A stretch of DNA of 64,000 bases from a virus. A program made the position numbers and the translations under genes. Within the stretch, counting starts at the first letter, position 1; each line of letters begins with the position of its first letter. This document shows positions 30,478-60,613 of the stretch, piece after piece. Under the pieces are notes generated by a model. That model saw nothing but the letters and a program-made list of their open reading frames with translations. It did no database searches and was not told where the DNA came from. Location: IMG/VR virus record IMGVR_UViG_3300048592_000967, positions 1 to 64,000 of that record. The stretch is one strand, 5' to 3'.

Positions 30478-30544
30478 GGTGCCCTCCCGTTCGCGTCTGG
30501 GCGAATTGTAGCAGAGCCTGACCGTTTTTGACACCGTAGCGACT

Positions 30545-42407: not shown

Positions 42408-42433
42408 ACAACAGCAACAGCAAAGGAGCAACC

Positions 42434-42832: not shown

Positions 42833-42842
42833 AAGGCTGTGC

Positions 42843-43070: not shown

Positions 43071-43083
43071 TCGGATTAGCTCC

Positions 43084-43683: not shown

Positions 43684-43691
43684 GAGTTGAA

Positions 43692-44042
43692 CTACTCCAT
43701 CCTGTCCGCAAGGGAAGCTTCTAGCAGCGCTGCAGCTTCTCGCAGTCTTTTGGCTACGTCCGCCGCCCGAGCCTCTGCCTCCGAATTGGGCCCCTGGCCT
43801 TTGCGCCAATCGGGCGCCGGGCGGGGGTCGTCAGTTTCGCCCATCAGGTAGGAAACCGAGGTCCTCAGCACGCGACAGACCAGGAGCAGTGTCTCATCCT
43901 CGGGCTTGTTCCGCCCACTCTCCCAGTTGTATACCGTCGTTCGAGCTTGCCCCAGTTGCCTTGCGAATTCGGCCTGGCTGAGACCTCTGAGCGTTCTGAG
44001 TTCGACCATCCGGCGGGCTATCGTTTCTCTGACGGGTGTCAC
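43692..44042 (-). CDS. Satellite XRE repressor
   Basis: A 116-residue protein; GTG 44042. One XRE domain (LSQAEFARQLGQARTTVYNW, residues about 20-39), then an acidic linker and a helical tail (AADVAKRLREAAALLEASLA). TATGAT lies 6 bases before the GTG, so the mRNA is predicted to be leaderless. Divergent from a cro-like gene. A 176-bp copy of its 5' part (from the second base of the start codon) lies inverted at 48008-48183, inside the regulator-integrase operon. Confidence 0.8.
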   Translation of the reverse strand: MTPVRETIARRMVELRTLRGLSQAEFARQLGQARTTVYNWESGRNKPEDETLLLVCRVLRTSVSYLMGETDDPRPAPDWRKGQGPNSEAEARAADVAKRLREAAALLEASLADRME

Positions 44043-44048
44043 CCGGCC

Positions 44049-44097
44049 ATCATACTTGTTCCCAATCTGTTGACAACTGCCCCATAATGAGTAGAAT
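44049..44097. promoter_or_regulatory. Overlapping divergent promoters of the satellite switch
   Basis: Rightward: TTGACA (44070-44075), 16 bases, TAGAAT (44092-44097), ATG at 44107. Leftward: TTGTCA (complement of 44071-44076), 16 bases, TATGAT (complement of 44049-44054), GTG at 44042. The two -35 boxes share the palindrome GTTGACAAC, so only one polymerase can bind at a time. Both starts fall within a few bases of the initiation codons, predicting two leaderless mRNAs. Confidence 0.65.
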
Positions 44098-44106
44098 GTC
44101 CACAGA

Positions 44107-44319
44107 ATGAGAACACTCGCCAAGCAACTATCAGACATCCGCACCGCCAAGGGCCTGTCCCAGGCCGCCCTGGCTCGCTTGCTCGGGGTAAGCCGTTCGG
44201 CCGTCCATAACTGGGAAGCTGGCCACCGGACACCAACGCTCGAGCAGACTTGCGCCCTGGCCACGGCCTTGGAATGCACCGTCGACCAGCTGGTTCGACC
44301 GATCGGGGCCGTGTCTTGA
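44107..44319 (+). CDS. Satellite Cro-like regulator
   Basis: A 70-residue single-domain XRE protein (LSQAALARLLGVSRSAVHNW at about residues 18-37). Divergent from the repressor and predicted leaderless. Its HTH resembles that of the repressor, so both probably bind the shared promoter region. Confidence 0.75.
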   Translation: MRTLAKQLSDIRTAKGLSQAALARLLGVSRSAVHNWEAGHRTPTLEQTCALATALECTVDQLVRPIGAVS

Positions 44320-44735
44320 GCCCGCTACCAAGCGCCGATGAGCTGCTGACCCGGGCCTTCCCACCAGGTCGACCGCCCGCCTCAGAGCCCTACCGGCTTG
44401 GAATGCTGGCGGAGTTCCGGGTTCAGACCGGTGAGGCCGTCGGGGTTCTCTGTCCCTACGACAAGGGCACCGCGGAGGCTGAGGCTTTCGCTGCCGGGGC
44501 CCTGGAAGCCGCAGGACTGCGCGAGGGGCCAGGGCCCGACCGTGGCCCGACTGTCCGCCGGCTGCGCCAGGACCCGGCCGAGTGGGCCCGAGGCTACCGC
44601 GACGGATTCGAGGACCGACGAGCCCCCGAGGGCTTTGCATACGCCTCGGGCTGGATCGAAGGCGAGGCCGACCGCCTGGCCGGGGCCGCCAACCGATTCA
44701 CCCCCGACCCATCCAGGCGCCACCCGGCCGAGTAG
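44316..44735 (+). CDS. Hypothetical protein after cro
   Basis: A 139-residue protein with TTG start overlapping the cro-like stop. Contains EAEAFAAGALEAAGLREG and DPAEWARGYRDGFED, a pattern of G-x-x-D-G-type repeats. High GC and few alternatives in frame. No family recognised. Confidence 0.5.
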   Translation: MSPLPSADELLTRAFPPGRPPASEPYRLGMLAEFRVQTGEAVGVLCPYDKGTAEAEAFAAGALEAAGLREGPGPDRGPTVRRLRQDPAEWARGYRDGFEDRRAPEGFAYASGWIEGEADRLAGAANRFTPDPSRRHPAE

Positions 44736-45091
44736 AACCACCAAACCCCTTCCCCACTGCTGGCCCTCGCTAGGGCTGGCTTTGCCATTCCCAAAACAAA
44801 GGAGGAAACGACGATGACTCCCGTTCCACAAACCCCGCTGGGGACGACAAGCGAACGCTGCATCCAGTTCGCTTGAGCAAGGGATGACTCGAACCGAGAC
44901 CGTCGCCAAAGTGTCCCCCACGTCCAGACCGTGACTTACAGCCAGGTGGGCATGGAGCTGCGCTCGAGCGCTTCTTCTGGAGTGACCTGCTAGAACCCAA
45001 GATCCTGGAAACACCGCCAACGACCTGGCTTTGCCCATGCCTTTTGGAAGCTCAGGCTTCCTGTGAAACCAGCGAAAGTAGAGGAAACCGG
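44736..45091 (+). other. 356-base stretch with degraded or tiny ORFs
   Basis: Only very short frames are seen here, the best at 44814-44876. Continuing its frame past the TGA gives another 38 readable codons, so it may be remnants of a gene broken by stop codons. No structured RNA or repeat was recognised. Confidence 0.3.
44814..44876 (+). CDS. 20-codon ORF with near-perfect SD
   Basis: ATG 44814 is preceded by AAAGGAGGAAACGACG, one of the best ribosome sites in the window, yet the frame ends after 20 codons. Leader peptide or remnant of a broken gene. Confidence 0.3.
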   Translation: MTPVPQTPLGTTSERCIQFA

Positions 45092-45142
45092 ATGAAGAAC
45101 CAGCTACGTAAATACCTGAGCCCAGCGGAGGGCCGAGAATGA
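45092..45142 (+). CDS. 16-codon leader-type ORF coupled to the ImmA-like gene
   Basis: ATG 45092 with GAGGA upstream; its stop overlaps the ATG of the peptidase gene. Sequence MKNQLRKYLSPAEGRE. Its main role may be translational coupling. Confidence 0.35.
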   Translation: MKNQLRKYLSPAEGRE

Positions 45143-45771
45143 TGAACGCACAGCCGAGGGTTTCGAGACAGCGGCCAAAGAACTCGATGGAACCTCGAGT
45201 GTCCATCACTACGCAGGACTATCCGGAAGACTGCAGCCGTCTGCTCACCGCAATGCAGAGGCTCCACCGGAGAGAGTATCGCTCGCCTCTCGAGGCCATC
45301 CCAGACTTGATCAGCTTCTTTGGGTTCCGCCTCGGGCGTCGTATGTTGCCGCCGCACCAGTGGGCACTGACGGACTTCGGGAAGAAGGAAGTGTGGCTCT
45401 GTAGCGAGCTGGCTGCAAAGCTTGAGATCCCGTCAGTAGCCAGAGAGGTTGAGGCGTTCTCGTTGGCTCACGAGCTGGCTCACGTGCGCCTTCACCAACA
45501 CCTCGACGAATTCAACGACCTGCATGAGAAGGAGGCCGACGCTTATGCAGCTTGCTTTCTGATGCCTATCCGCCTTCTGCGCTTGGCGCCGGCGTTCAGC
45601 CGATTTCTGAGGGCTGAGACCCAAGGAGCAATGAGTCAGGAGGTCTCGGCGTTGGCTCAGCGGTTCGGGGTCAGCCGCTCCGCCATGACCTACCGTCTGT
45701 GTTCGCTCGGGGTGCTCCGCGTTGTTTCCGGTAGATGGGTGAAGGTGAGTTCCAAGGAGGTTATGCAATGA
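45139..45771 (+). CDS. ImmA/IrrE-family metallopeptidase of the satellite
   Basis: A 210-residue protein with zinc motif HELAHVRLH near residue 115, EKEADAYAACFLMP downstream and a C-terminal HTH-like end (AQRFGVSRSAMTYRLCSLGV). It is homologous over its whole length to the helper gene at 6037-6627. It probably cleaves the satellite repressor, but the presence of similar peptidases in both elements makes cross-induction possible: helper induction could inactivate the satellite repressor. Confidence 0.85.
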   Translation: MMNAQPRVSRQRPKNSMEPRVSITTQDYPEDCSRLLTAMQRLHRREYRSPLEAIPDLISFFGFRLGRRMLPPHQWALTDFGKKEVWLCSELAAKLEIPSVAREVEAFSLAHELAHVRLHQHLDEFNDLHEKEADAYAACFLMPIRLLRLAPAFSRFLRAETQGAMSQEVSALAQRFGVSRSAMTYRLCSLGVLRVVSGRWVKVSSKEVMQ

Positions 45772-46061
45772 AGAAGATTACAAAACCGAACGCACGGCGC
45801 GCAAAGGCCGCGGAAGAGTGGCAGTTTGAGGTCAAGCTCATTACCCCCACGCCCGAGAAGGAAAAGCAAATCATTCAGGCCCTGGTCAAGTTCATGGCCC
45901 CCGGCATCGCTGCCATCGCCAGAGAGCGGGGCCTGACCAATGCCCTTCCCCCCGAGGAGTTCGCTCGACGTCACAAGCTGATGGTCGACTACTACATGGC
46001 CAACCCACAGGCCACCTCCGTTCCTCCAGAGTTGCTGGCTGTTCCAGTCCAACCGGACTGA
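45768..46061 (+). CDS. Conserved small protein shared with the helper
   Basis: A 97-residue protein, ATGA-coupled to the peptidase. Residues 14-91 are nearly identical to the helper protein at 10949-11308; about 230 bases are almost unchanged. Function unknown. The high nucleotide identity points to recent exchange between helper and satellite. Confidence 0.6.
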   Translation: MKKITKPNARRAKAAEEWQFEVKLITPTPEKEKQIIQALVKFMAPGIAAIARERGLTNALPPEEFARRHKLMVDYYMANPQATSVPPELLAVPVQPD

Positions 46062-46092
46062 GTGTTCGCTCAGCCTCGACACTCCGTGAAGC

Positions 46093-46190
46093 GTGACAAC
46101 CCTGTGACAGCCGTGACAGGTTGCCCCCTCGGGCTGTCACTCTGAAAACGGCTTAAAATCGGGGTTTGTGACAGCGTGACAGCTGTGACA
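46093..46190 (+). repeat. Iteron cluster 1 (GTGACA)
   Basis: Seven copies of the hexamer GTGACA/TGTCAC within 98 bases (46093, 46104, 46113, 46135 inverted, 46168, 46176, 46185), mostly in the context TGTGACAG. The same hexamer is repeated seven times inside the primase gene (51455-51622). Candidate binding sites of the satellite primase-helicase. Confidence 0.55.
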
Positions 46191-46465
46191 AGTTTTTGAC
46201 CCCATCTTCTGGGTGTCGCGTTTCTCGTTTTTTCACCGGCTGGGTCACCGAGAGGGGCTCAAGCGAGAAAGCTGGAAACCGGGCTCACTCGGAAAAGAAA
46301 ACAGCCCCCGCTGATGTTTGGCCACACACGGGAGCTGCCTATCGTTCCAGTCTTTGACAACTGAATGCCCTGGGCCGGCTTTGGGAACCGTGCCCTGGGA
46401 CCAGACTTCCCCGGCTTGGAGTTCTGACCTCCTGGCCGGGGTTGTCTGTTGTGTTTGGTTCTGTC

Positions 46466-46484
46466 GGTGATCACCAGGTGATCA
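46466..46484 (+). repeat. Integrase arm-type sites, left arm
   Basis: Two GGTGATCA octamers exactly 11 bases apart (46466 and 46477), 72 bases from the att core. The same pair with the same spacing lies on the other side of the core (46720-46738), as expected for arm sites of a tyrosine integrase. Confidence 0.55.
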
Positions 46485-46555
46485 GAGTCGATTTCTCGAG
46501 CCGTGCCTTAGAACCGTCGGTCACCTTCAAACGGCTTGAAACCGTCGATTGTGAC

Positions 46556-46601
46556 TGGCAGGAGTGACAGGATTCGAACCCGCGACCTACGGTTTTGGAG
46601 A
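46556..46601 (-). other. attP core: 3' half of tRNA-Trp (CCA anticodon)
   Basis: Read on the minus strand this is the tRNA 3' half: TCTCCAAAACC (anticodon CCA), variable region, T-arm with GGTTCGAATCC, acceptor strand and encoded CCA end. The 5' half (D-arm) is absent on either side, so it is not a functional tRNA gene but an attachment core that would restore the 3' half of a host tRNA-Trp on integration. The same core recurs at 63478-63523. Confidence 0.8.
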
Positions 46602-46719
46602 GTTACTTCCCCCCGTTTGGGTCTGTTCCGATGGGTCGGATTGGGTCGGAGAAATGGCTTCAAATCGGGGTTCTGAGAAGGCTCGAGTCAGACCGTGTTC
46701 CGGGCAGTTTGGAACTGTC

Positions 46720-46738
46720 GGTGATCAGGAGGTGATCA
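46720..46738 (+). repeat. Integrase arm-type sites, right arm
   Basis: GGTGATCA at 46720 and 46731, again 11 bases apart, between the att core and the integrase stop. Only the three spacer bases differ from the left arm pair (ccA versus ggA type). Confidence 0.55.
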
Positions 46739-46758
46739 AGCCCTGGCAGAACCGTAGG

Positions 46759-47973
46759 TCACAGACCCGGGCTCTCTGCTCTCCGGCGGAGGGGAACCAC
46801 CGTGCCCCGTTCGGCCGGCTCTGCACCCAGCGCAGGGGCCGCCTCGAGCATGTCCGCCAACTTGGCTGCAGCGCCGGCCTGCATGGTGGGCAGGACGTGG
46901 GAATAGGTGTCGAGGGTGATGCTGATGCTCGAATGACCGAGTCGCTCACTGACCACCTTGGGATGTTCGCCCGCCAGGAGCAGCAGCGTTGCGCAGGTAT
47001 GGCGCAGGTCATAAAGCCGGAAGCTGCTGGACAGGCCGGCTCGCTCAAGGGCAGGCTTGAAGGCCCTCTTGGTTAGATTGCCTTCAAACACGGGCCCGCC
47101 GCTCTCGTTCGCAAAAACGAAATCCCACTGGCTCTGCCACTTGTCGCCGGCAAAGAGCCGCTCCGGGACCTGCTGGACCCGGTGGGCCCTGAGTTCCTCC
47201 ACGTCTCGAGCGTGGAGAGCCACGGTTCGCCTCGAGCCAGACGTCTTTGGTTCCTCAAACTTCCACCCGCCGCCCTTCGGTCGAACCAGGACCTGAGTTA
47301 CCCGGACGAGTCCGCGCTCAAGGTCCACTTCAGGCCACTGCAGCCCGAGGTATTCCTCGGGCCGCATACCGGTTCTCAGAGCAAAGCTGAGCAATGGACC
47401 CCAGCGCTGGCCCTCGACAGCCTTCAGAAACGCCTTGGCCTGCTCCAGGGTCATCGCCCGAAGGACCTTCTTCCCTCGGTTGGCGGGCAGATTCACGTCG
47501 GCCGCGGGGTTGTGTCCCAGCATCCGCCACTTTACGCCCTGCTTCAGGGCCTGGTTCAGCACAGTGTGAAGCCGGCGGATAGTGAGCGGGGAGAGCCCCC
47601 GGTCGAGCATCCTGGAATAGAGGCCTTGGATGTGGATCACGTTCAACTTGTCGAGGGGGAGCCGCCCGATCTTGTCCTCCTTCACATAGCGTTCCCAGAC
47701 CCCGGTATAGTCCTCGTGGGTCCGCCCCCGAATGCTACCCCTGGCCGAAGCCAGCCACTGTTCGAGCAGCTGGTTGACGGAGCCCGAGGAGCGAGCAACC
47801 AGCTGGCCGCGTTCGTAGGTGCCGACCAGGGCCCGGAGCCGCACTTCCGCCTCCTTCTTGGTGCCATGGACGGTCTCGGTATGGTAGAGGCGCTTCCCGG
47901 TCACCGCGTCCTTACCCAGGGATAAGCGGAGAAGGTAGGTCTTGTCGCCGCGCTTGATGATGGAGCCGGTCAT
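46759..47973 (-). CDS. int: Tyrosine integrase of the satellite
   Basis: A 404-residue protein; ATG 47973 overlaps the upstream regulator stop (ATGA). N-terminal AP2-like arm-binding region (SIIKRGDKTYLLRL), SAM-like core-binding domain (NQLLEQWLASARGSIRGRTH), catalytic domain with the first Arg in LRTGMRPEEYLGLQW, LYDLRHTCAT (box II with Tyr replacing the first His), LGHSSISIT and nucleophile Tyr in DTYSHVLP. The gene ends 157 bases from the att core and points to it, a typical integrase-att layout. Confidence 0.95.
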   Translation of the reverse strand: MTGSIIKRGDKTYLLRLSLGKDAVTGKRLYHTETVHGTKKEAEVRLRALVGTYERGQLVARSSGSVNQLLEQWLASARGSIRGRTHEDYTGVWERYVKEDKIGRLPLDKLNVIHIQGLYSRMLDRGLSPLTIRRLHTVLNQALKQGVKWRMLGHNPAADVNLPANRGKKVLRAMTLEQAKAFLKAVEGQRWGPLLSFALRTGMRPEEYLGLQWPEVDLERGLVRVTQVLVRPKGGGWKFEEPKTSGSRRTVALHARDVEELRAHRVQQVPERLFAGDKWQSQWDFVFANESGGPVFEGNLTKRAFKPALERAGLSSSFRLYDLRHTCATLLLLAGEHPKVVSERLGHSSISITLDTYSHVLPTMQAGAAAKLADMLEAAPALGAEPAERGTVVPLRRRAESPGL

Positions 47974-49202
47974 TCTTGCGCCGCTTTGCGAGCTGGTTGC
48001 TGCTGTCTGACACCAGTCAGAGAAACGATAGCCCGCCGGATGGTCGAACTCAGAACGCTCAGAGGTCTCAGCCAGGCCGAATTCGCAAGGCAACTGGGGC
48101 AAGCTCGAACGACGGTATACAACTGGGAGAGTGGGCGGAACAAGCCCGAGGATGAGACACTGCTCCTGGTCTGTCGCGTGCTGGGAACCAGGGCCAGGCC
48201 GCCATCAATAAAGTCCATGAGCACCTCGGAAGATTGCTCAGGTGTCGATGCTGGGGGGATCAGGAATTGCTCCGGAGAGAGTCGTTCGTACGGAGGGAAG
48301 TTCTCAGGATGAAGCTTTCGATCGAGTCTGAATTCCGCAAACTCTGCCTTGCCCATCAAAACGAACCGGCCTGACCCTCCGATACGAAGCAAGTGGAGTT
48401 CTCCCGATTTGAGCGCCGCCTGTTCTTCTGGCGACAAACCTGCGAAGTAGGTGCGCCAATCCTTGCGCTGTTCCCAGAGCAAAGTGAAGATGTCCTTCCG
48501 CCTCAGTTCCCTGACCATTTGCGCGCGCCGGTCTCGCTCTTGCTCGTCTGGTTTCATTCGGGTGCGCCGAGCCATCCGCATCAGCGGTGAACTTTCATTG
48601 CACCCGCGTGTCCTGAGTAGGTCCACAGGATCTAGAGCGGGCAATTGGGATTCCCAGTCCTCCTCCCAGTCGTCGAGTTCGTCCTCATGGTCTCCAGGAA
48701 CGTCCTTGGCGTCGTTCTCGCGGGCAATGGGCGGTTCCGACTCTCCGGGCGGATTGTCCGACTGCAGGCTCTCGGTTGCTACTATGGAAACTTTGCTTGC
48801 TACGGCTTCGACGTTTTCCTGGATGTGACCAGGGGCGGCTGGGGCTTTTTTCTTGGCCTCCGCCCCACTCGTCTTCCCATCGGGTGGTAAGCCCCGAGCA
48901 AGCCAGGTCCCAACGCTCATTGCGAGATTTTCCGGGCACCCGTGCGCTATAAGCACCTTCTTGGCCGCCCTGAATAGGTTGTCGAGCTTGGTAGGCTTAA
49001 CTGCCCCCTTTTCCCAGTTCAGCAAAGTGTCTCGAGACGGTCCGCCGTTGGACTCTATGGCTGACTTTGATGCCGAAAAAGTTTCGTAGAAAATCGGCAG
49101 TCTTTTGCCCAGAAGTGGTTCATCAGGAAGCCCGTCACATAGGGCTTTCCAGTCTTTTCGTTCGGCAGTGAATTCGGCATTTTCTGGGGTGCCGATCGGC
49201 AT
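47970..49202 (-). CDS. Regulator coupled to integrase, with antisense-repressor C-terminus
   Basis: A 410-residue protein. Residues about 50-90 contain a possible HTH (SRDTLLNWEKGAVKPTKLDN). An acidic middle (about 160-190) and a helical segment (RDRRAQMVRELRRKDIFTLL) follow. The last about 65 residues are encoded by the complement of a 176-bp copy of the satellite repressor gene, an acquired end that leads by ATGA overlap into int. No family recognised. Probably a regulator of integration or replication genes. Confidence 0.6.
   Translation of the reverse strand: MPIGTPENAEFTAERKDWKALCDGLPDEPLLGKRLPIFYETFSASKSAIESNGGPSRDTLLNWEKGAVKPTKLDNLFRAAKKVLIAHGCPENLAMSVGTWLARGLPPDGKTSGAEAKKKAPAAPGHIQENVEAVASKVSIVATESLQSDNPPGESEPPIARENDAKDVPGDHEDELDDWEEDWESQLPALDPVDLLRTRGCNESSPLMRMARRTRMKPDEQERDRRAQMVRELRRKDIFTLLWEQRKDWRTYFAGLSPEEQAALKSGELHLLRIGGSGRFVLMGKAEFAEFRLDRKLHPENFPPYERLSPEQFLIPPASTPEQSSEVLMDFIDGGLALVPSTRQTRSSVSSSGLFRPLSQLYTVVRACPSCLANSAWLRPLSVLSSTIRRAIVSLTGVRQQQPARKAAQE
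48008..48183 (+). repeat. Inverted copy of the repressor 5' region
   Basis: Matches the complement of 43866-44041 at 175 of 176 bases (mismatch at 48015). On this strand it encodes the HTH part of the repressor, but the start codon is CTG instead of GTG and the frame diverges after CRVLG. The mRNA of the opposite strand (regulator-int) therefore carries 176 bases complementary to the repressor mRNA. Confidence 0.85.
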
Positions 49203-49277
49203 ACGCAGTCCTCCAACACTCGTTACAGTCTAGACAGGTCGGATTTCCGACACTTCGGACGACAGGAGTTCACTTCC

Positions 49278-49517
49278 TTGAACAACTCAGGACTGCTCAA
49301 TGGCCTACCTCGCCTGATCAAGCCTTGGCCCGACTGGGGGCAAGCGAATGGTCTATCTCGTGGCGCAACCTACGCGGCAGTCGATCGGATGCCGCCCGGC
49401 GTCCGGATCAAGATCGGCGGTCGCCTCCGCCTGAACGCAGACAAGCTACGAGAGTATCTTGAAGCGGGCGGAGACCTGGCCCGTCAATGTTCGGACGGAC
49501 CCGGTGACTCCCGCTGA
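49278..49517 (+). CDS. Excisionase / AlpA-like DNA-binding protein
   Basis: A 79-residue protein with TTG start and AGGAG 9-10 bases upstream. GLSRGATYAAVDRMPPGVRI, then IGGRLRLNADKLREYLEAGG reads as a MerR/Xis-type winged helix ending in a recognition helix. Divergent from the regulator-int operon. Likely directionality factor or activator of the replication genes. Confidence 0.65.
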   Translation: MNNSGLLNGLPRLIKPWPDWGQANGLSRGATYAAVDRMPPGVRIKIGGRLRLNADKLREYLEAGGDLARQCSDGPGDSR

Positions 49518-50031
49518 GAGCGCCCGCAAGGCTCGAGCCCAGTATTGCCTGGAGACTCTCGGCGCCTGCGTCTGCAAGAACGCGTCAAGAGCGAGCGAGT
49601 TGCGGTGCCTGGGGTGCCGTGGACGAGCTCTGCTTTACCTACAGGATGCCGTTGGTCTGATTCACTGTGCGGCCTGCGGCCGGCGTTGGACCCTGGCCGG
49701 GTTCGCGCGCGAATTCGGCTTACCGCCACCGCCAACTTTTGAGCCTGCGCCGGGCCTAAATGGCGACCCACTAACGAAAGGACACAACGCGATGCTCCCC
49801 CAAAAAACAACCCTTCCCGCGGGCCAGCGAGAAGGGCTCAACTCTAGCTCAAAAACGAACTCTGTTCCGAAACCCATTTTCCACCCGCAGGGCCAAAGCC
49901 CCTCCGAGCTGACCTTTGAGGAGGCCGTCATGCGGGCTTCTCGTCGACCGCATGTCCCTGCGCCGCTGTTCGTGCCTGAACTGAGTCAAGCGGTCCCGGA
50001 CTGGCGCTTACCTGGCAGGAGGCTGGGCTGA
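49504..50031 (+). CDS. Zinc-finger protein upstream of primase
   Basis: A 175-residue protein; GTG 49504 overlaps the previous stop. Cys pairs CVC, CLGC and CAAC-G fit a zinc-ribbon module (residues about 18-60) like those at the start of primases. An internal ATG at 49792 with AAAGGA could give a short C-terminal protein. Perhaps a primase accessory. Confidence 0.5.
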   Translation: MTPAESARKARAQYCLETLGACVCKNASRASELRCLGCRGRALLYLQDAVGLIHCAACGRRWTLAGFAREFGLPPPPTFEPAPGLNGDPLTKGHNAMLPQKTTLPAGQREGLNSSSKTNSVPKPIFHPQGQSPSELTFEEAVMRASRRPHVPAPLFVPELSQAVPDWRLPGRRLG

Positions 50032-50399
50032 TGCAGCGCCCCGCCTCCGAACCAGGTGGCGGGGCCGGTCGGGCCCCCAAGCCCCCGGCACCGCCCTTTG
50101 AACTGCTCGAACTGAATCCCATCGGCAAGGGGAGTCTTCTCGGCCGGGTGCGGCTCAAGATGCCCTCGGGACTCATCATCGCCTGCAACGTGCTGCGTTC
50201 CAAACAAGACGGCCAGGCCGTATTCGTTTTGCCAGTCGGGGAGCGCCGGCACGACGGTGGATTCGCTCCTATCGTCGACTTTGCGACTCCAGAACTCCGG
50301 GAAGCCTGGCAAGACTCGGCACTGGCGGCCGTTCGCCCGAGGCTCCATGAACTTCTCGACCCCACCCCCAAGGAGCGTTCCCAATATGCAGACTTCTAG
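50031..50399 (+). CDS. SpoVG-like small protein
   Basis: A 122-residue protein, TGATG-coupled. The core (LLGRVRLKMPSGLIIACNVL, GQAVFVLPVGERRHDG) follows the strand order of SpoVG-fold DNA-binding proteins. Often found beside mobile-element primases. Assignment by resemblance only. Confidence 0.5.
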   Translation: MQRPASEPGGGAGRAPKPPAPPFELLELNPIGKGSLLGRVRLKMPSGLIIACNVLRSKQDGQAVFVLPVGERRHDGGFAPIVDFATPELREAWQDSALAAVRPRLHELLDPTPKERSQYADF

Positions 50400-53300
50400 C
50401 CGCCGAGGGTCGACAGTAACCCAAAAGAACCCCTGTCCGATTTGTGGCAAACCGGACTGGTGCCTCCGTTTTCAGGACGGCGGCGTGAATTGCTATCGGG
50501 TGCCTTCGCTGCGGGAGAAGACCGACCATGAAGGCACCCTGTACTGGGTTCATCAGACGGAAGCCGGTGAGCAGGGCCCGGCCCTGGAACCGCTCCCTAC
50601 GCAACAGCACAGCAGGGCCTCGGCCGACAAGGTGGACCGAGTCTACCGGGAGTTGCAGCAGCAACTGACTCTGAACCAGGAGCACCAGGCCCAGCTGGTC
50701 GACCGGGGTCTGCCCGAGGTGGCCATCCGAGAGCACGGCTTCAGGTCGATGCACAGCCCGGCAGTTCGGGCGACCATCGCCAGGAGCATCGCTGACCGCT
50801 TCTCCGACTGGCAAGGTGTCCCGGGCTTCTACTGCGACCCCAAAACAGGGAAGGCCCGGCTGGCTGGTTCCGAGGGTCTGCTCATCTTCGGTAAGGACTT
50901 GGCCGGTAACGTGGCCTCGGTAAAGATTCGTCGAGATACGATAAAGGCAGGACAGGACCGGTACTATTGGCTGAGCAGCACCAAGCACGGCGGCCCGTCT
51001 TCGGGTTCCTCGCCCACCTGGTGGGAACCGGTATCCAGGTCCCGGCTTAATGGGGTGGTTCGCATCACTGAAGGCGCGTTCAAGTCCGTGGTCAGCGCTG
51101 AGTTGACCGGGGTTCCTGGTATCGCCGCAGGGTCCGGGGTGGGCTCCATGGCCAGCCCCCAGGTGCTCGACTTCCTGGCCGAACTGAATCCAGAGAAGGT
51201 TCTCGTCTCCAGCGACGCTGACTGGTTCTACAAAGCTGAGGTAGTTGTGAAGGCGAGAGCCTGCCTGGCTCGTCTGGCTGATGTTGCCGAGCGCTCCGGT
51301 CTTGAAGTCCTGGTGGAAGTCTGGCAGAGGGACCTCCCCGCCAAGGAGCGCTTCAAAGGCATCGATGACGCCTTAACCGGTGGCCAGTCTATCGAAACCC
51401 TGGATCTTGATCGCTTTTTGAAATTGCTGCCCCCAGAAGATAGGGGTAAAAAAGTGTCACAGCTGTCACACGGTCAAGGAATGGCTTCAAATAAGGTTTC
51501 AGAGGGTGACGGCCTTTTGTCACAGGCTGTCACGGGGGGCCATGGCTCTTTGTGCGAAAGCCTGATTTTAAGCCATTCTGAGGGTGACAACCCTGTGACA
51601 ACCCAGGCGGCCGAGCTGTCACCGGCTGCCTCCTCACACCTTCCGCAGACCCTCGAAGGGGCTCTTCTGGCCGCCGACCGGTTTAGAGAGCAGATGAAGC
51701 CCAAGGACCTCCAAGGCCTGGCTTCTTCGATTTCGGCTGCTACTCGAGGGGTGGCCGTTGCGCCGAAGTTCCGCCGGCGGGTCCTGAACGTGCTCCAGCG
51801 ATACGAGGCGCTACTGGGTGGCCATGGTGTGAACATTCACGATGTGACGGCGAGTGAACAGGCGCTTCGCGATTCCGAGGAGAGCGACACCGACAAGAAG
51901 GACCCGAACCACCAGGCAGACGTTCTCTTGGAAATGGCGTCCGCCGCCCAACTCATCAAGCACGGGAACCACCACTACATGAGCATGCTTCGCACCAACC
52001 CGGACGGGAGTTTCGGCCGCGAGACGGTTCGCTTTGGCGATCGGGGCAACGGCGCCGCCGCCTGGCTGAACTATGGCTACTACAAGGCCAAGGGTCGCGC
52101 CCCCAGTTCGGAAGCCATCAAGGCCGCCATGGCGACCCTGGAAGCCCGGTGTGAGTTCGAGGGCCTACAAGAGCGAGTCTGGCTTCGTGTGGCAGAGTCG
52201 GCCGATGGTGGAGACGGCAGCGATCGACGCCTCTACCACGACCTGGGGGACGAGCACCGGCGAATCGTCGTCATCAGTCCCCAGGGTTGGCAGGTGGCTC
52301 AGGATGTCCCGGTCTACTTCTGGCGACCCAAGAGCCTCCAGGCCCTACCCGAACCGGTAAGGGGTGGTTCGCTGCTGGAACTGCGGGAGTTCCTGAACCT
52401 CCCCGACGAGAGCAGCTGGATTCTGGCAATTGCCTTCCTGATTTACAGCTTCGTGCCGACCTGCCCCCATCCGCTGCTCATCCTTGAGGGCGAGGAAGGA
52501 TCCTGCAAGACTTGGGCCAGCCGCATTCTCCGTTCCCTGGTCGACCCAAACGGCGCCCTGACCCGGCGCCCACCGCGCAACGAGGAAGACCTCAGCCTCT
52601 ATGCCCTGAACTCTCATCTGCCTTGCATCGACAATGTTGGCCAGATCGAGGACTGGCTGTCTGACGGCCTGTGCGCTATCACCACCGGCAACGGGTGGGG
52701 CCGGCGGGCCAAGTTCACCGATGAGGCCGAATCGGTCGTGAACGTGGTGAGGCCCGTCATGATGACCGGGCTGAGTGGTCTGAACGGCAAGTCCGATCTG
52801 ATGGACCGAACGATCAAGCTGGTTCTGCAGCGCGTCCCTCCCAGCAAGCGACAGGCAGAGTCCGACCTTCAGAAGGCCTTCGAAGAGGCCCGCCCCCGTA
52901 TTCTCGGGGCCATTTACGATGTTCTCGCCAAGGGCCTGGCCAACCGCGGACAGGTCCCCCTACCAGCGCTCCCCCGCATGGCCGACTTCGCGCGGTTCAT
53001 TGTCGAGGCTGAGGAGGCGCTACCTTGGAAGCCCGGTCAGTTCATGGAGGCCTTCCGCGAACATCGAATAGACCAGGTCCTGGGGGTGCTCGAGTCAGAC
53101 GGCCTGGCATCCGCCGTGCGGGAGCTCATGCGCCAGACCACCCGCTGGGAAGGCTCGGTCAGTCAACTCCACGTTCGCCTCTCAGAGTTCCGGGAGTTCA
53201 AGAGCAAGTTGCCAGGGCCCATGAGCCTGAAGGCCGCGATCCTAAAACTCAGGCCCAGTCTGCGGCATCTTGGAGTCGAAGTTTCTGACCTGCGCACCCG

Positions 53301-53424
53301 CAACGCCCGCTTGATCGTCTTGGAGAAAATGAGCGAGCGGCCCTCTGGGCTGCCTCAGAGCGAAGCGAAGCCGAGCCAAGAAACTCTCGCTGCCGAAGTT
53401 GCGGCCGTCGGAGAGCTGTTTTGA
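50386..53424 (+). CDS. Primase-helicase (replication protein of the satellite)
   Basis: A 1012-residue protein; ATG 50386 with AAGGAG 10 bases upstream. N-terminal zinc motif (CPICGKPDWCLRF), Toprim-like DUF3854 region (RITEGAFKSVVSAEL, VLVSSDADWFYKAE), repeat-rich linker (about 360-410), and a C-terminal ATPase with Walker A LEGEEGSCKTW and CIDNVGQIEDW/RPVMMTGL motifs. It is the P4-alpha type of layout: priming and unwinding by one protein. Its gene includes the second iteron cluster, so the origin may lie within it. Confidence 0.8.
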   Translation: MQTSSRRGSTVTQKNPCPICGKPDWCLRFQDGGVNCYRVPSLREKTDHEGTLYWVHQTEAGEQGPALEPLPTQQHSRASADKVDRVYRELQQQLTLNQEHQAQLVDRGLPEVAIREHGFRSMHSPAVRATIARSIADRFSDWQGVPGFYCDPKTGKARLAGSEGLLIFGKDLAGNVASVKIRRDTIKAGQDRYYWLSSTKHGGPSSGSSPTWWEPVSRSRLNGVVRITEGAFKSVVSAELTGVPGIAAGSGVGSMASPQVLDFLAELNPEKVLVSSDADWFYKAEVVVKARACLARLADVAERSGLEVLVEVWQRDLPAKERFKGIDDALTGGQSIETLDLDRFLKLLPPEDRGKKVSQLSHGQGMASNKVSEGDGLLSQAVTGGHGSLCESLILSHSEGDNPVTTQAAELSPAASSHLPQTLEGALLAADRFREQMKPKDLQGLASSISAATRGVAVAPKFRRRVLNVLQRYEALLGGHGVNIHDVTASEQALRDSEESDTDKKDPNHQADVLLEMASAAQLIKHGNHHYMSMLRTNPDGSFGRETVRFGDRGNGAAAWLNYGYYKAKGRAPSSEAIKAAMATLEARCEFEGLQERVWLRVAESADGGDGSDRRLYHDLGDEHRRIVVISPQGWQVAQDVPVYFWRPKSLQALPEPVRGGSLLELREFLNLPDESSWILAIAFLIYSFVPTCPHPLLILEGEEGSCKTWASRILRSLVDPNGALTRRPPRNEEDLSLYALNSHLPCIDNVGQIEDWLSDGLCAITTGNGWGRRAKFTDEAESVVNVVRPVMMTGLSGLNGKSDLMDRTIKLVLQRVPPSKRQAESDLQKAFEEARPRILGAIYDVLAKGLANRGQVPLPALPRMADFARFIVEAEEALPWKPGQFMEAFREHRIDQVLGVLESDGLASAVRELMRQTTRWEGSVSQLHVRLSEFREFKSKLPGPMSLKAAILKLRPSLRHLGVEVSDLRTRNARLIVLEKMSERPSGLPQSEAKPSQETLAAEVAAVGELF
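51455..51622 (+). repeat. Iteron cluster 2 inside the primase gene
   Basis: Seven GTGACA/TGTCAC hexamers in 168 bases (51455, 51464, 51519, 51528, 51584, 51595, 51617) plus ATGGCTTCAAAT and the inverse TTTTAAGCCATT. The same hexamers and CGGCTTAAAAT-type motifs are in cluster 1. This region encodes a low-complexity Ser/Gly linker, so the DNA sequence may be constrained instead of the protein. Confidence 0.55.
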
Positions 53425-53702
53425 CGCCCGCCGAACACGTCCGGCGTTGGTCAAGTCTGCTGTCCTGTGCTCACAGTCCGGGGGTCTGCGTGATTCTCAG
53501 CCGATACCCAGGGATTCTTCGGGTTTGCCTTAGACCGAAGGCCCCCGGGCGCCAGAGGGAGCACGAGTTGTTGTTCGACCCTGTAAACGACAAGCCCGAG
53601 CGGATAGGCCAGCAGATCGAGGCTATGCGAGGTGGCGGAAACTACCCGCGGCGCGTTTTCACCGAGGCCGCGATCAAGGTGCTGAAAGGATGTCTTCGAT
53701 GA
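53421..53702 (+). CDS. Hypothetical satellite protein
   Basis: A 93-residue protein with TTG start overlapping the primase stop. Basic, with LLFDPVNDKPERIGQQIEAM. No family recognised. Confidence 0.5.
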   Translation: MTPAEHVRRWSSLLSCAHSPGVCVILSRYPGILRVCLRPKAPGRQREHELLFDPVNDKPERIGQQIEAMRGGGNYPRRVFTEAAIKVLKGCLR

Positions 53703-53992
53703 CACAGACCAATCGCCGAGCCCTGATCGCCCTCAGGGCATTGCGGCAAGCTCAAGCCGACCTGGTGGCGTTCTCGGATCAGTTGCCTGCCGAGGGAGGC
53801 CCCCTGGCCGGGCCCGAGCGCGAGCTGGCTCTTCTGGCCACCGAGGCAAGGGAAGCCCTGCATCTCGCTGCTCAGAAGGTGGAGACTCTGGTAGATGCCC
53901 ACCGCATCTTCCAGAGCCTCAGGCTTGAGTTCAATGGTCGCAGAGACGGCCAGGAACAACCAATTCTTGGAAGGGAGAGCATCCAGCAATGA
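53690..53992 (+). CDS. Hypothetical helical satellite protein
   Basis: A 100-residue protein; ATG 53690 or 53699. Helical (LIALRALRQAQADLVAFSDQ; LALLATEAREALHLAAQKVE). Overlaps both neighbours. No family recognised. Confidence 0.5.
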   Translation: MSSMTQTNRRALIALRALRQAQADLVAFSDQLPAEGGPLAGPERELALLATEAREALHLAAQKVETLVDAHRIFQSLRLEFNGRRDGQEQPILGRESIQQ

Positions 53993-54207
53993 GAGCTCAG
54001 ACAACCTGCTCGAGCTGTGGCGGGACGCTGTTGGTCGAGGAGGTGAGTCTCACCCGAGACAACGGCAAGACGTGGATCCGGCAAAGGATTTATCGGTGCC
54101 TTTCCCAGCGACACAAGGGCGGCTGCCCGGCACAGACGGAGGATGTCGCGGAGATTCCGGCTCCCAGGACCGATTGGGCGCCAAAGGGGGAGGTTCACTA
54201 CGGCTGA
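53989..54207 (+). CDS. Small zinc-ribbon protein
   Basis: A 72-residue protein with CSSCGGTLLVEE and a second pair (CLSQRHKGGC), as in transcription-factor-type zinc ribbons such as Ogr/Delta regulators that activate helper late genes in P2/P4. The resemblance is weak but the location before the capsid-related gene makes that role worth testing. Confidence 0.5.
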   Translation: MRAQTTCSSCGGTLLVEEVSLTRDNGKTWIRQRIYRCLSQRHKGGCPAQTEDVAEIPAPRTDWAPKGEVHYG

Positions 54208-54271
54208 GGTTTCGGGGGAACGGGGGCAACGGGGGCAACGGGGCCATTCAAACGAAACGAGGTGTAGTCAA

Positions 54272-54781
54272 TTGAAAAAGCCAACTTCTTACGTCGAGTG
54301 CTGCCGAGAACTGGAGTCTTCGGGAGTAGACTCCGACACCGCCTGCCGTGCCTGCGAAATCGCTTTCTGGCAGACCCACGGCATGCTTATCGAGACCGCA
54401 GAGCGAAACGGTGCTGACCCCGCCGGCAGCCTTATCGACTCGGCCAGGGCGTCGACGATCGAACTCTCAAGGCAGGACGATGGGGGCAAGAACCGCCAAA
54501 TCGGTCAGGCAGGCTTGAGCAGGAACCTGACCAGAGGGGCCTCTCTGGCATCACCGCCGGATGAAGATCCTGACGACATGGTGAAACTGGCCCGAAGAAT
54601 GGGCCTGCCTGTCCGCCCAGAGTCGAAGGTCGACCCCAACGACCTGGTCAGCGTCGCCAGAAATCTGGGGCTTCCAGTTCGTCCCGAGCGCCCCGCCTGT
54701 GCCATCGAAGAAAGCGACCCCGATCACATGGTCAAGCTGGCCAAAGGGTTGGGGCTACCTGTCGGACCGGTAACCAGTTGA
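54272..54781 (+). CDS. Scaffold-mimic protein: candidate capsid-redirecting factor
   Basis: A 169-residue protein; TTG 54272 with GAGGTG upstream. Residues 1-60 match the N-terminus of the helper protease/scaffold (32622): YVECCRELESSGVDSDTACR against YVECCQELESAGMDSDKACR, including all four Cys. The protease and linker are missing. The C-terminal half then carries three tandem variants of the helper scaffold's last motif: DMVKLARRMGLPV, DLVSVARNLGLPV and DHMVKLAKGLGLPV (helper: MLKLAKKMGLPV). A small protein made of scaffold ends is what a capsid-size or capsid-choice factor of a satellite would look like. Confidence 0.75.
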   Translation: MKKPTSYVECCRELESSGVDSDTACRACEIAFWQTHGMLIETAERNGADPAGSLIDSARASTIELSRQDDGGKNRQIGQAGLSRNLTRGASLASPPDEDPDDMVKLARRMGLPVRPESKVDPNDLVSVARNLGLPVRPERPACAIEESDPDHMVKLAKGLGLPVGPVTS

Positions 54782-54842
54782 ACTCGACTTGAATTCATCG
54801 ACACGACAACGGGGAGTTTGTCATAGCGAAGGAGACATAACC

Positions 54843-55415
54843 ATGTTCGGATTCTTGAAACGAAACAGGAAACCGCTACCCGCCCGGCCGGTCGAGGAAA
54901 TCGACGCAGAGCTTGGCCCATTGGTCGAGGCGCAGCAAATTGAAGCGGCACGTCGACAGAAGATCGACCAGCTCCAGGAAGAACGCAGTCGGGCTGTACT
55001 GTTGGCAGAAGAGGAGCAGCGCGCGAAGCAGGCCGCTGACCTGCAGCCTGAATACGAGAGACACGCCTCCGCCTGGCGAGAGAAGGTCGCCGCTATTGAG
55101 GACGCGCTTCAGGGGCTGATGCACGATTTCAAAGAGGCCGCCGACCATGGGTGGAAAGCCAGCAGGGTGCAGCTTCGGATCGAGCGTCTTGGCCACCGGG
55201 TGAGCAACCCGCTTCGGGGCTATCAAGCCTCCTTTCTGGGCTACTTCACTTACGAGCGCTTTCTCAAGTTGTGGAAGGAGGCCGAGCGGCCCGGGGCGCT
55301 GGCGCCGCATCAGGCAGCAGCTGTCACCCGTGGTGAGCAACGCAGTCTGCCCGCTCAGCGAACTCTGCCACCTGTCCCCGTGAAGCCCTCCGCCAAGGGT
55401 AAGCTCAAGGGATAG
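54843..55415 (+). CDS. Coiled-coil protein before the packaging-like site
   Basis: A 190-residue protein; ATG 54843 with AAGGAG upstream. Basic N-terminus, Glu/Gln/Ala coiled coil (residues about 20-90), a helical centre and a basic Pro-rich tail (PVKPSAKGKLKG). The leader contains AACGGGGAGTTTG, like the structural-gene leaders of the helper. Could act in packaging or assembly; no family recognised. Confidence 0.5.
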   Translation: MFGFLKRNRKPLPARPVEEIDAELGPLVEAQQIEAARRQKIDQLQEERSRAVLLAEEEQRAKQAADLQPEYERHASAWREKVAAIEDALQGLMHDFKEAADHGWKASRVQLRIERLGHRVSNPLRGYQASFLGYFTYERFLKLWKEAERPGALAPHQAAAVTRGEQRSLPAQRTLPPVPVKPSAKGKLKG

Positions 55416-55457
55416 CGACCTGGCCGGGGCCTGTCGAGGACGCGCCCCGGCCCTTGG

Positions 55458-55586
55458 AACTTAGGAAATCCTGACGGGGCGTTTTCGTGCGAGGATGCAC
55501 CCTCGTTTTATTTTGCCGGGGGAGACATCGCGAGGGGAGACATCCCAGGCAGTGTCACGAGTCGGCAGGTTCTCGTGGGGAGACAT
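55458..55586 (+). repeat. Candidate packaging site, satellite copy
   Basis: 55458-55526 equals the helper element 30560-30628 in reverse complement (69 of 69). It is followed by further copies of GGGGAGACAT (55519, 55534, 55577). Identity stops on both sides, so the short element was conserved or acquired separately from flanking DNA. It fits a cos/pac-type site through which helper terminase would package satellite DNA; a shared leader/terminator is the alternative. Confidence 0.6.
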
Positions 55587-55606
55587 ACCTGCCCGCTATG
55601 GTCCAG

Positions 55607-55648
55607 CTCTGTAACGGGGAGTTTGCGGAATTGGAACGGTAACAACCC
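55607..55648 (+). promoter_or_regulatory. Leader of the satellite tape-measure gene
   Basis: CTCTGTAACGGGGAGTTTGCGGAA resembles the leaders of the helper capsid and tube genes (CTCTGTgAACGGGGAATTT) but has lost the pairing arm and the strong SD. It suggests that the gene is expressed as a structural gene from its own leader. Confidence 0.4.
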
Positions 55649-58600
55649 ATGGCTGTTGTGCCAGTAATTTTGAAACTGCTCGCCCAGAAGGCGCCGGGAC
55701 TAACCTCGGCGCTCTCTGAGGTGCGCAAGGATTTCGGGGACCTCGCCTCCCTGGTCGACACCGTCAAACTCAAGGCCGCGGGATTCACCCTGGCCACCAC
55801 GGTGGGCATCGCCTCACTGGGTGGCCAGGTCGTGAAGCAGGCCGGCGAATTCGAGCAACTTCAGGCGCGAATGCTCTCGGTGGCCAAAACCGCCGAGGGC
55901 GCCTCAGCAGCTTTCCAAAACGCGCTGGAACTGGCATCAAACAGCCCGTTCGACGTAAAGGGCGTGGTTGCAGCTACCGTCCAACTCGAGGCATTCGGCC
56001 AGCGCTCCAAAGAGTTGCTGCCCTTGGTGGGCAACCTGGCCGCTGCGTTCGGAAAGCCGATCGAGGAGGGCGCTCAGGTCCTCGGCAAGGCATTCAGCGG
56101 CAGCCTCGAGGGCTTCGAGTCGCTACGGAACACCTACGGTATCTCTACGGCCCTGCTGGTGCGCTACGGTGCCACGATGGCCAAAACAGGGGGCATTGCC
56201 GTCTCGACGGCGACGGACCTCCAGAAGGCCCGACAAGCGCTTACCCAGATCATCCAGACCCGCTACGGCGACGCCATGGAGCGACAGAGCCGGACTCTAT
56301 TCGGGGCGTTTTCCAACTTGGAGGACGCCGTCTCGCGTTTCGCAGCAGCGTTCGGGACCGCGTTGATCCCGCTCGCGACGACCATCACCAGGGCTCTGAC
56401 CGCGGTCGTTGAGAGTTTCGAGCAAATCCCGGCACCGTTCCGAACGCTGATTGCACTCGGTGGAGTCGCCACGGTGACGATCGGCGCTCTGGCTACGGCA
56501 GTGCTCGGTGTCGTCGGCCTGGTCGGAAACGCAATTCCCCCGCTCGTGTCCATGGGCAGGGCGATGGGCATCCTGGGGGGCACCTCCGCGGCTACAGCTG
56601 GAGAGGTCACGGTGACAGTCCTTGCAACCGAGCGCATGGGCGTGGCTAACGCGGCGGCCTCCGAGACGGTGGTGAACTTGGCTCGAGTCGTCACCGGGGC
56701 CGGGATTGTCCAGCAGGCTTTCAATGCCGAGCTAACCTACACGTCGCGCGCCCTGACCGGCCTTACCGGACAACTGCCGGCTCTGACCGCCGAGGTCGCA
56801 CTCTACCGGCAGGTGACCTCCGGGGCCTCCATCGGCACGGCTCAACTGGCCCTGGGGGCGGGCAAGGCCGGCCCTCAGTTGGCACTGGCTACGGCCGGCG
56901 TCCAAAACCTGGCGGTGGCCACCCCGCAGGCCTCGACCGGCCTGGCCAACCTGGCCGCGAGAACCGATGCTGCTACACGAGCGGGCGGCGTGTTTGCTGG
57001 CCTGGGTCTGGGCCCAGTCTTGCTGGGGATCGGCGCCGTCGCCGGCGGAGCCACGTTGGCGCTGGCCAACATGCACAACCAGAACGAGCGACTTAACCAG
57101 TCCGTGGAGCAGTCAGCACGAATCTTCCAGGATGCGGTTCGGGGTTTGCGACAGATGCAGAGTTTCATCGAACAGCTCACCGGTAAGCAGGCCGGTTACG
57201 TTCGAGGCAATACGACTGCTGCAGAGGCCGTGGCGGCGTTTAAGGAGCAACTCAACGAGATCAGTCCAGCTGAGCTGCTGGATAGGCTCGAGAAGGCCGG
57301 GAAGTCAATCCAAGACTTGCGGGACGAACTCAAGCTTGGAACTGAGGTGGCCAATAAGCAGGCCGCTGAGATTGCGAGAATCGAAGAGGAACAATCGCGA
57401 CTCAACAAGACGATTGAGCTTTACAAGGCGCTGATGAAGTCGGGATTCAGCGACCAGGTCAACACTCAGGAACTGGATGAAGCGGGCTCGCAGCTCGAGA
57501 TAAACCAGGAGCGGCTTGATACCCTCAGGAGCAGCTTTCAAAGAACCAGCAAGGAGAACTCCTTGAAGGAAGAGCTGATCCCTCGTCTTGAGGCGACCTC
57601 GAAGGCCTTTGAAGCGGCAAGCGAGCATACCCAGCAGTTCAGCGCATACCTCAGTAGTGTCGGACGGACCGACTCAATCCCCCAGGTGAACCGAGCAATC
57701 GAGCTGACGAACCAAAGGCTGCAGCAAGTCCGAAAGGACCTCGAGGGCCAGGGCTTACCCTTGAACAACTTGGTGGCCCTCAGGGAACGTCTGCTCAACG
57801 CAAACCCGAAGGAGCAGCAGGCGATCAACGACCTACTGAAACTCGAAGATGCCCGGGTTGACTTGGTCAAAAAGCGGGAAGACCTGGAGCAGGCCGGCGT
57901 TCGTGAGAAAATCCGACAGGCCGACCTGGCCATCGAGCGCGAGAACGTCCGCCTGGGCGAGAGCCTGACGCGCGAGCGGGAGCGAGTCGCAGCCCAACTG
58001 AACCTCGTCCGGAGCGGCAGCGAGGAAGAGCTCAGCATTCGCAAACGTCTGGCCAGCCTCGATGATCGCATTCGCACTGACAAAGTCACGAAAGCTCGAG
58101 ACGCCTTTGAGACCGAGCAGGGCGCCTTGCGCGATGGGCTCGACGCTTTGCGGGGCTCGGGTGAGGCCAGCGCTGAGGAGATTGCCGGGGCCATCGAGCA
58201 GATCATCCTCAAAACGGAGGCTTGGCAGGCGGCTAACAAGGGCATCCTTGCTCAGTCGCCAGACCTGACCCAAAGCGTCTCAGGGGCCCTGCGAGGGCTG
58301 CGCAGGGACCTGGATTCAGCTACCCGGGCCATTCCGAAGGAAAGAGTCGATGAAGCGCTGGCGGCGGCCAAAGAACTCGGAACCGAGGCCATCAACGCCG
58401 AGCAGAAGCTGGCGGCGGCCACGAAGGGTATCGAGCAACTACGGGCCCTCCAGGCATCGGGAGAGATTACCACTACCCGAGAGCGAGCAAGGCTGCAGTC
58501 TGAAATCAACAAGCTGACCAACGAGGAGCTCAAGTTGCGGACCGAAGTCGCTAAAGAGGAGCGGGCTCAGGCGAGGGAAACGGACGCGCTTCGCCGCGGT

Positions 58601-59329
58601 GGGCTCGAGACCGAGCTGGAGCTGCTCAAGGTCCGCCAGGAGCAATCAGGGCAGGACCTGAGTTCCCAGATCCGCGACAAAGAGCAGCAGATCCTGGCTG
58701 AGAAGCTGCAGGCCATCCGGGAGCAAGAGCAAGCCGAGATCGACTCCGGCGTGAACGCTACTCGGGCCCGAGAACGGGCGGAGATCCGCATCACCCAACT
58801 GAAAAACGAAGAGACTCTGAAGCGCATGCAGGCAGAGTCCGACCTCACCGGCGCCGTCGAATCCGAAGCCAAAAAGCAAGAGGACATCCGTAAGCGCTAT
58901 CAAGACCAGCGCCTGGGTGGGCCGAACTCTCCTCTCAAGTCCCTCGCCGAGGTGAGCGAGGAGCTTCAGATGCTGGGGGCTTTCGATCTGGGCTCCGGCT
59001 TTGGGCGCTCTCGCAGCAACGCGAGGCAGTCTCCACCCTCAGGACTGTTCGAAGTCCAGAGGCAGATCGAGTCTGACATCACCTCCGGGGACCGAGTGGC
59101 TGGCCGTGGCCAGCGCGGTCGGTATACCGATGCGATCAACGCAGCCGAAAGGACCCCCACTTTCGTGGCCCCGGACGGCCCGGGAACGCCGGCCGCCGGC
59201 ACAGTGAACAACTACTACGTGAGCTTGCAAAACCGAGCCCTTGACGTCAACGACCCCGCCAGCCAGCAAGCGGTTAAGCAACTGGTTGGGCAGTTCATCA
59301 CCGAAGCTCAGCATCGGGGTGTGGCATGA
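55649..59329 (+). CDS. Tape measure protein, copy B (satellite)
   Basis: Complete 1226-residue tape measure, same domains as at 38727. Its first 24 bases differ from copy A at six synonymous sites, and differences continue to 56571 with only three amino-acid changes (Ile/Leu, Ser/Thr, Ser/Ile). The gene has therefore been kept under protein-level selection in its own lineage, not just copied. No other tail gene precedes it; it follows the packaging-like site. Confidence 0.88.
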   Translation: MAVVPVILKLLAQKAPGLTSALSEVRKDFGDLASLVDTVKLKAAGFTLATTVGIASLGGQVVKQAGEFEQLQARMLSVAKTAEGASAAFQNALELASNSPFDVKGVVAATVQLEAFGQRSKELLPLVGNLAAAFGKPIEEGAQVLGKAFSGSLEGFESLRNTYGISTALLVRYGATMAKTGGIAVSTATDLQKARQALTQIIQTRYGDAMERQSRTLFGAFSNLEDAVSRFAAAFGTALIPLATTITRALTAVVESFEQIPAPFRTLIALGGVATVTIGALATAVLGVVGLVGNAIPPLVSMGRAMGILGGTSAATAGEVTVTVLATERMGVANAAASETVVNLARVVTGAGIVQQAFNAELTYTSRALTGLTGQLPALTAEVALYRQVTSGASIGTAQLALGAGKAGPQLALATAGVQNLAVATPQASTGLANLAARTDAATRAGGVFAGLGLGPVLLGIGAVAGGATLALANMHNQNERLNQSVEQSARIFQDAVRGLRQMQSFIEQLTGKQAGYVRGNTTAAEAVAAFKEQLNEISPAELLDRLEKAGKSIQDLRDELKLGTEVANKQAAEIARIEEEQSRLNKTIELYKALMKSGFSDQVNTQELDEAGSQLEINQERLDTLRSSFQRTSKENSLKEELIPRLEATSKAFEAASEHTQQFSAYLSSVGRTDSIPQVNRAIELTNQRLQQVRKDLEGQGLPLNNLVALRERLLNANPKEQQAINDLLKLEDARVDLVKKREDLEQAGVREKIRQADLAIERENVRLGESLTRERERVAAQLNLVRSGSEEELSIRKRLASLDDRIRTDKVTKARDAFETEQGALRDGLDALRGSGEASAEEIAGAIEQIILKTEAWQAANKGILAQSPDLTQSVSGALRGLRRDLDSATRAIPKERVDEALAAAKELGTEAINAEQKLAAATKGIEQLRALQASGEITTTRERARLQSEINKLTNEELKLRTEVAKEERAQARETDALRRGGLETELELLKVRQEQSGQDLSSQIRDKEQQILAEKLQAIREQEQAEIDSGVNATRARERAEIRITQLKNEETLKRMQAESDLTGAVESEAKKQEDIRKRYQDQRLGGPNSPLKSLAEVSEELQMLGAFDLGSGFGRSRSNARQSPPSGLFEVQRQIESDITSGDRVAGRGQRGRYTDAINAAERTPTFVAPDGPGTPAAGTVNNYYVSLQNRALDVNDPASQQAVKQLVGQFITEAQHRGVA

Positions 59330-60605: not shown

Positions 60606-60613
60606 GAGTTGAA

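Follow-up and report, generated by a model that had tools for sequence, protein, structure and literature searches.

The window analysed here is a stretch of 64,000 nucleotides (positions 1 to 64,000 of the IMG/VR record IMGVR_UViG_3300048592_000967), and an open reading frame for 169 residues was found on its plus strand at 54272..54781. The start of the encoded protein, here called P0001, was placed at the TTG codon at 54272, where homology to a helper phage protein sets in (MKKP), and an upstream ATG at 54143 was not favoured. Residues 1-65 of P0001 are 72% identical over 66 aligned columns to the helper protein encoded at 32622-33914, and the preliminary description was right in regarding the N-terminus as a copy of that of the helper scaffold. 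This region corresponds to a Cys-rich four-helix domain common to both proteins (54272..54466, plus strand), annotated from the identity, the pLDDT values and the pN/pS comparison.

The C-terminal part of P0001 contains three copies of the motif that occurs once, at 33840-33893 (ESQEMLKLAKKMGLPV), in the helper scaffold. Copy 1 (DPDDMVKLARRMGLPV; DPDDMVKLARRMGLPVRP) lies at 54566..54619, copy 2 (DPNDLVSVARNLGLPV; DPNDLVSVARNLGLPVRP) at 54632..54685 and copy 3 (DPDHMVKLAKGLGLPV; DPDHMVKLAKGLGLPVGP) at 54716..54769, all on the plus strand and all annotated from motif scoring and selection. Against the helper motif their BLOSUM62 scores are 54, 33 and 43 respectively. Shuffling the P0001 tail 20,000 times never yielded a score as high as the corresponding best, second-best or third-best one, and a scan of the other open reading frames of the record gave a top score of no more than 32. 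The earlier claim that the last motif of the helper protein is tripled in P0001 is thus upheld by the shuffles and by the purifying selection on each copy, and it is strengthened by the second satellite described below, whose protease-scaffold ends in four copies. The protease and coiled-coil parts of the helper protein are missing from P0001, in agreement with the proposal that both ends of the scaffold were retained while the protease and linker were lost. A MAFFT alignment that placed the motif tail against the protease region was judged an artefact and set aside.

In the AlphaFold2 model, residues 1-60 form the four-helix N-terminal domain with a pLDDT of 84-92 and with helix boundaries as in the helper protein. 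A disordered stretch is predicted after this domain, followed by short helices at residues 100-109, 125-131 and 150-159. GLPV follows every one of the three helices, in a tail for which the pLDDT is low (about 40-58).

Purifying selection acts on the N-terminal domain and on each of the three motif copies. For the domain, comparison of helper with satellite gives a pS of 0.67 and a pN of 0.16, and the motif copies compared pairwise have a pS of 0.57-0.76 and a pN of 0.14-0.27. The motif duplications are old and all copies have been retained. P0001 could be seen as what remains, without function, of a scaffold gene that has recombined, since it is pieced together from parts of a larger helper gene and no close relative of it was found. 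We regard this as highly improbable because the domain and every motif copy are constrained, non-synonymous change being limited where synonymous change is saturated, and because an independent satellite, described below, shows the same kind of multiplication.

The helper protein itself (32622..33914, plus strand) matches phrog_976, the head maturation protease, and is annotated as a protease-scaffold with one C-terminal motif. Its AlphaFold2 model begins with the four-helix domain, which is followed by the protease strands and a disordered linker; beyond these lie a long helix (298-348) and a final helix (407-417) that precedes GLPV. The portal protein gene lies at 31099..32625 (plus strand; PF06074) and the gene for the major capsid protein of the lambda gpE family, the presumed target of P0001, at 34406..35539 (plus strand; PF03864, phrog_29). 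The helper combines this Mu-type portal with lambda-type D and E proteins and a tail tube, and its terL (28463-29992) adjoins a terS candidate. No multiplied tail was found in three further scaffolds of the helper type (L043, L044 and L063).

Sequence from more than one genome appears to be joined in the record. Positions 38727-47078 are found again at 55649-64000, shifted by exactly 16,922 bp. This repeat extends past the window as far as position 65064, where the record ends; its mismatches all fall before 39650, after which 8,493 bp are identical. A second IMG/VR record, IMGVR_UViG_3300048839_001463 (L005), equals window positions 30839-39826 with one mismatch and then diverges from the contig, and past the divergence it carries a tape measure gene whose protein is 58-76% identical to that of the window. 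The repeat and L005 together mark a block of 177 bp, identical in the helper and satellite tape measure protein (TMP) genes, as the chimeric junction (39650..39826, with a second copy at 56572-56748). Most simply, then, the window would not be a single genome, and the contig would fuse a helper and a satellite. In the simplest reading the assembler jumped from the helper to a circular satellite within the 177 identical bases and went round it for one lap plus part of a second, because L005 shows the helper continuing differently after 39826. A real helper-satellite recombinant would be a less simple explanation. A genuine tandem helper-satellite genome was also considered and is unlikely, since L005 supplies the other continuation of the helper and the repeat is free of mismatches over 8,493 bp. 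A public contig in which helper and satellite are joined as one record is a warning for virus catalogues.

One complete lap of the inferred 16,922-bp circle is represented by 39650..56571, as delimited by the exact offset repeat and L005. The satellite encodes a tyrosine integrase (46759..47976, minus strand; phrog_1 with 1.3e-72, Pfam PF00589), and a 45-bp 3' half of tRNA-Trp(CCA) at 46556..46600 (minus strand) was annotated as attP. A primase-helicase gene is found at 50257..53424 (plus strand), with the Zn motif CPICGKPDWC in the product and DUF3854 in its relatives, one of which, in the satellite Sat3 described below, matches DNA helicase/primase. The regulators comprise an XRE protein and an M78-protease. 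P0001 is followed by the gene of a 208-residue coiled-coil-like protein (54789..55415, plus strand; ATG start probably near 54843) that lies between P0001 and a putative cos site (55458..55586, plus strand). The cos candidate consists of 85 bp common with the helper, including the near-palindrome CGAGGATGCACCCTCG, and three GGGGAGACAT iterons, with GGGGAGAC as the iterated unit. Its helper counterpart (30544..30628, minus strand) has 96% identity and overlaps the start of the terS candidate; the exact cos sequence was sought in IMG/VR and no match was found. The satellite TMP gene (55649..59329, plus strand) encodes 1226 residues, the first 500 of which are 98-100% identical to the helper TMP and the rest 58-76%. 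The copy of this gene at 38727-42407 is the contig's hybrid of the helper and satellite genes.

The integrase, the tRNA attachment site, the primase and the helper-like packaging site are traits of PICIs, and the integrase, attP, primase-helicase and helper-like cos confirm the satellite and helper reading given in the preliminary description. None of the satellite open reading frames tested matched head or packaging families (capsid, portal, terminase). With regard to the regulatory and interference genes typical of PICIs (stl/alpA, pti, terS), the XRE and M78-protease regulators were found, and terS gave no match in this satellite and one in Sat3. Assignment to the cf-PICIs was rejected, as a capsid protein, portal and terminase of its own were not found among the satellite open reading frames tested.

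Two minor features of the satellite were also recorded. A 108-residue protein encoded at 45735-46061 is 88% identical to one encoded at 10919-11305 in the helper, and a likely relative occurs in Sat4 (see below); the pair is possibly a regulatory link between helper and satellite. In addition, an inverted duplication of 182 bp (98%) within the satellite (43860-44041 and 48008-48189) spans the N-terminal coding end of an XRE repressor and the region preceding the integrase, and is possibly a duplicated operator and promoter.

The C-terminal motif can be compared with a characterised element. In phage 80alpha the scaffold binds the capsid protein through its last 16 residues, an amphipathic helix of 11 residues and a hook of 5, and CpmB of SaPI1 displaces the 80alpha scaffold through nearly the same element and changes the capsid size (PMC5644958). 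The end of the helper protein (...SQEMLKLAKKMGLPV...) has the same helix-and-hook layout, and three such elements are present in P0001. P0001 is thus read as a multivalent scaffold mimic because the helper motif has the coat-binding layout of 80alpha and is present three times in P0001. By analogy with CpmB and Rcm, we think it probable that P0001 competes for the helper capsid protein and diverts the assembly of heads, probably towards small ones.

In the mechanism that we propose, P0001 would retain the N-terminal helical domain of the helper scaffold, while a flexible tail would replace the protease, linker and coiled coil. The tail would present three copies of an amphipathic helix with a GLPV hook, each a grip on the capsid protein by analogy with the 80alpha scaffold and CpmB. 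Several grips on one short chain could outcompete the helper scaffold, and by holding adjacent capsid subunits close together they may favour a smaller shell that would fit the 16.9-kb satellite and not the helper. The copies might bridge neighbouring subunits or merely raise the affinity. For its capsid protein, portal and protease, for a terminase acting at the cos site common to both, and for most of the tail, the satellite would rely on the helper. Capsid binding, competition and head size are what we infer from the characterised systems.

The satellite of 16.9 kb compares with a helper of at least about 41 kb (window positions 1-39826 together with L005), so that it has at most about 0.41 of the helper length. 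This ratio falls where T=7 helpers yield satellite heads of T=4; the T=7 phage P2 has 33 kb (PMC6893505), and a convergence on T=4 has been described among satellite heads (PMC10945586). Small heads are not required for a satellite of this kind, because SaPIs can be mobilized without size redirection (PMC6893505) and PICMIs package concatemers with no capsid remodelling (PMC10803314). The packaging of concatemers by PICMIs also bears on another explanation, in which the C-terminal motif binds the portal, the head protease or a decoration protein and P0001 aids normal-size satellite heads filled with a concatemer; three satellite lengths amount to about 51 kb, close to what a helper genome might plausibly measure. 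However, it is the coat that the conserved motif at the scaffold C-terminus binds in the 80alpha, SaPI1 and Rcm systems (PMC5644958, PMC12409344), and a multiplied motif suits the many-copy coat better than a 12-copy portal, so we hold this explanation to be quite unlikely.

The same motif evidence would also fit a protein that poisons assembly, its three grips occupying the capsid protein and blocking helper heads without making small ones, in the service of interference with the helper or of host protection. Multivalent decoys compete well, and CpmA by itself makes assembly aberrant (PMC6893505). With its helper-like cos and with no capsid, portal or terminase found among its open reading frames tested, though, the satellite appears to need the heads of the helper. 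The N-terminal domain is conserved as well, a feature with no obvious use in a pure poison, and the scaffold of the satellite Sat2 keeps the protease fused to its repeats. We therefore consider poisoning unlikely, and retain the redirection of head assembly by a multivalent mimic as the preferred reading.

Among the known capsid-size switchers, CpmB is similar to P0001: both are small proteins of satellites, alpha-helical in their N-terminal part and bearing the C-terminal motif of the helper scaffold (the helix-and-hook in CpmB), and CpmB competes for the capsid protein (PMC5644958). It differs in its length of 72 residues, its single coat-binding motif and its own dimer domain, and shares no detectable homology with P0001, in which the N-terminal domain of the helper is retained and three motifs occur. 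Rcm of SaPIpT1028, likewise a satellite switcher, resembles its helper scaffold at several motifs and has a coat-binding helix-and-hook by prediction (PMC12409344); its helper is unrelated and no multiplied C-terminal motif has been reported for it. P4 Sid and PLE TcaP are also satellite proteins that make small helper heads, but they are external scaffolds that grip the outside of the shell, do not mimic a scaffold and have no motif common with the helper scaffold. Of the analogues named in the preliminary description, CpmB fits the proposed mechanism through the helix-and-hook shared with its helper scaffold, as Rcm also does, while Sid and TcaP are poorer ones. No significant similarity of P0001 to CpmB, Sid or TcaP was found in Pfam, PDB-sequence or Foldseek-PDB searches, and fold searches with P0001 returned nothing. 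The preliminary description proposed a motif search for further members; searches of IMG/VR, GenBank phages and GTDB contigs with the motif, the protein and the N-terminal domain found only helper scaffolds. Mimicry of scaffolds by satellites is already known; a multiplied coat-binding end was not found in the literature searched. Few capsid-size switchers have been characterised, and a multiplied coat-binding segment would allow the control of curvature to be probed directly through the number of motifs.

The tRNA-Trp half of the attachment site occurs with one mismatch in several genomes of about 8 Mb (G145-G147) and in a smaller one (G157), all from the phylum of L044 (UBP9); the 149 genomes of the L045 phylum gave no such match. 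The host is thus likely to belong to UBP9, which we take to be Eremiobacterota in GTDB. Satellite genes were absent at the other tRNA-Trp copies checked in G145-G147, and two matches of the P0001 profile in this phylum (G067 and G006) proved spurious on inspection. A search of the phylum found four further satellites that have both primase and tape measure genes. Sat2 (G149:C10:22951-41221) is 18,216 bp long and is bounded at tRNA-Met by an exact repeat of 55 bp, and Sat3 (G147:C2; L100/L101, 178001-213000) measures 26,256 bp, with exact repeats of 52 bp at tRNA-Sec on either side. Compared with the satellite of the window, Sat3 scores 44% for the integrase and 50% for the primase over the N-terminal 357 residues, and its tape measure protein has 1500 residues. 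Sat4 lies on G146:C69 (L104), and Sat5, on a contig fragment (G149:C273; L102), is the second such element in the genome that carries Sat2. No scaffold mimic of the P0001 kind was recognised in Sat3, Sat4 or Sat5.

Sat2, integrated in a genome of about 8 Mb, encodes a protease-scaffold relative of 400 residues in addition to its tape measure gene. The protease region is retained, with 34-36% identity to relatives and with DH and RxSxG stretches visible. The C-terminus consists of four helix motifs as tandem units, MLRKAFGL, MLREAFGL, MLREAFGI and MLRRAAGI, with the consensus MLR(E/K/R)A(F/A)G(L/I). The match of the units to one another was reached in none of 5,000 shuffles, and they have a pS of 0.71-0.92 and a pN of 0.05-0.35. 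Their resemblance to the motif of the P0001 helper is weak, as is expected if every satellite matches its own helper. This second satellite with four copies suggests a repeated-grip takeover of viral head assembly.

More tentatively, and as a possibility that we would not yet call probable, phage satellites of this Eremiobacterota-like phylum may have evolved a multivalent scaffold at least twice, or inherited and diversified one, in which three to four capsid grips per chain pin the subunits at a tighter curvature and which acts alongside a TMP of their own, so that both head and tail are remodelled. If true, the multivalent scaffold would be a design for size redirection distinct from the single-grip CpmB dimers and the external cages of Sid and TcaP. 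Satellite tape measure genes are known from PLEs and have been noted in other satellites (PMC12987554). The PLEs resemble the satellite of P0001 in encoding their own TMP, although the identity between the TMPs of PLEs and that of ICP1 is about 20%, compared with 98-100% over the first 500 residues here. A satellite family with its own TMP genes in a poorly studied phylum extends tail piracy of the PLE type beyond Vibrio. Upstream of the TMP gene of Sat4, a protein of 117 residues (L104 9924-10277) was considered as a carrier of the GLPV motif and rejected, 3,122 of 20,000 shuffles reaching its motif score; the protein contains an internal duplication with a score of 80 against a shuffle maximum of 44.
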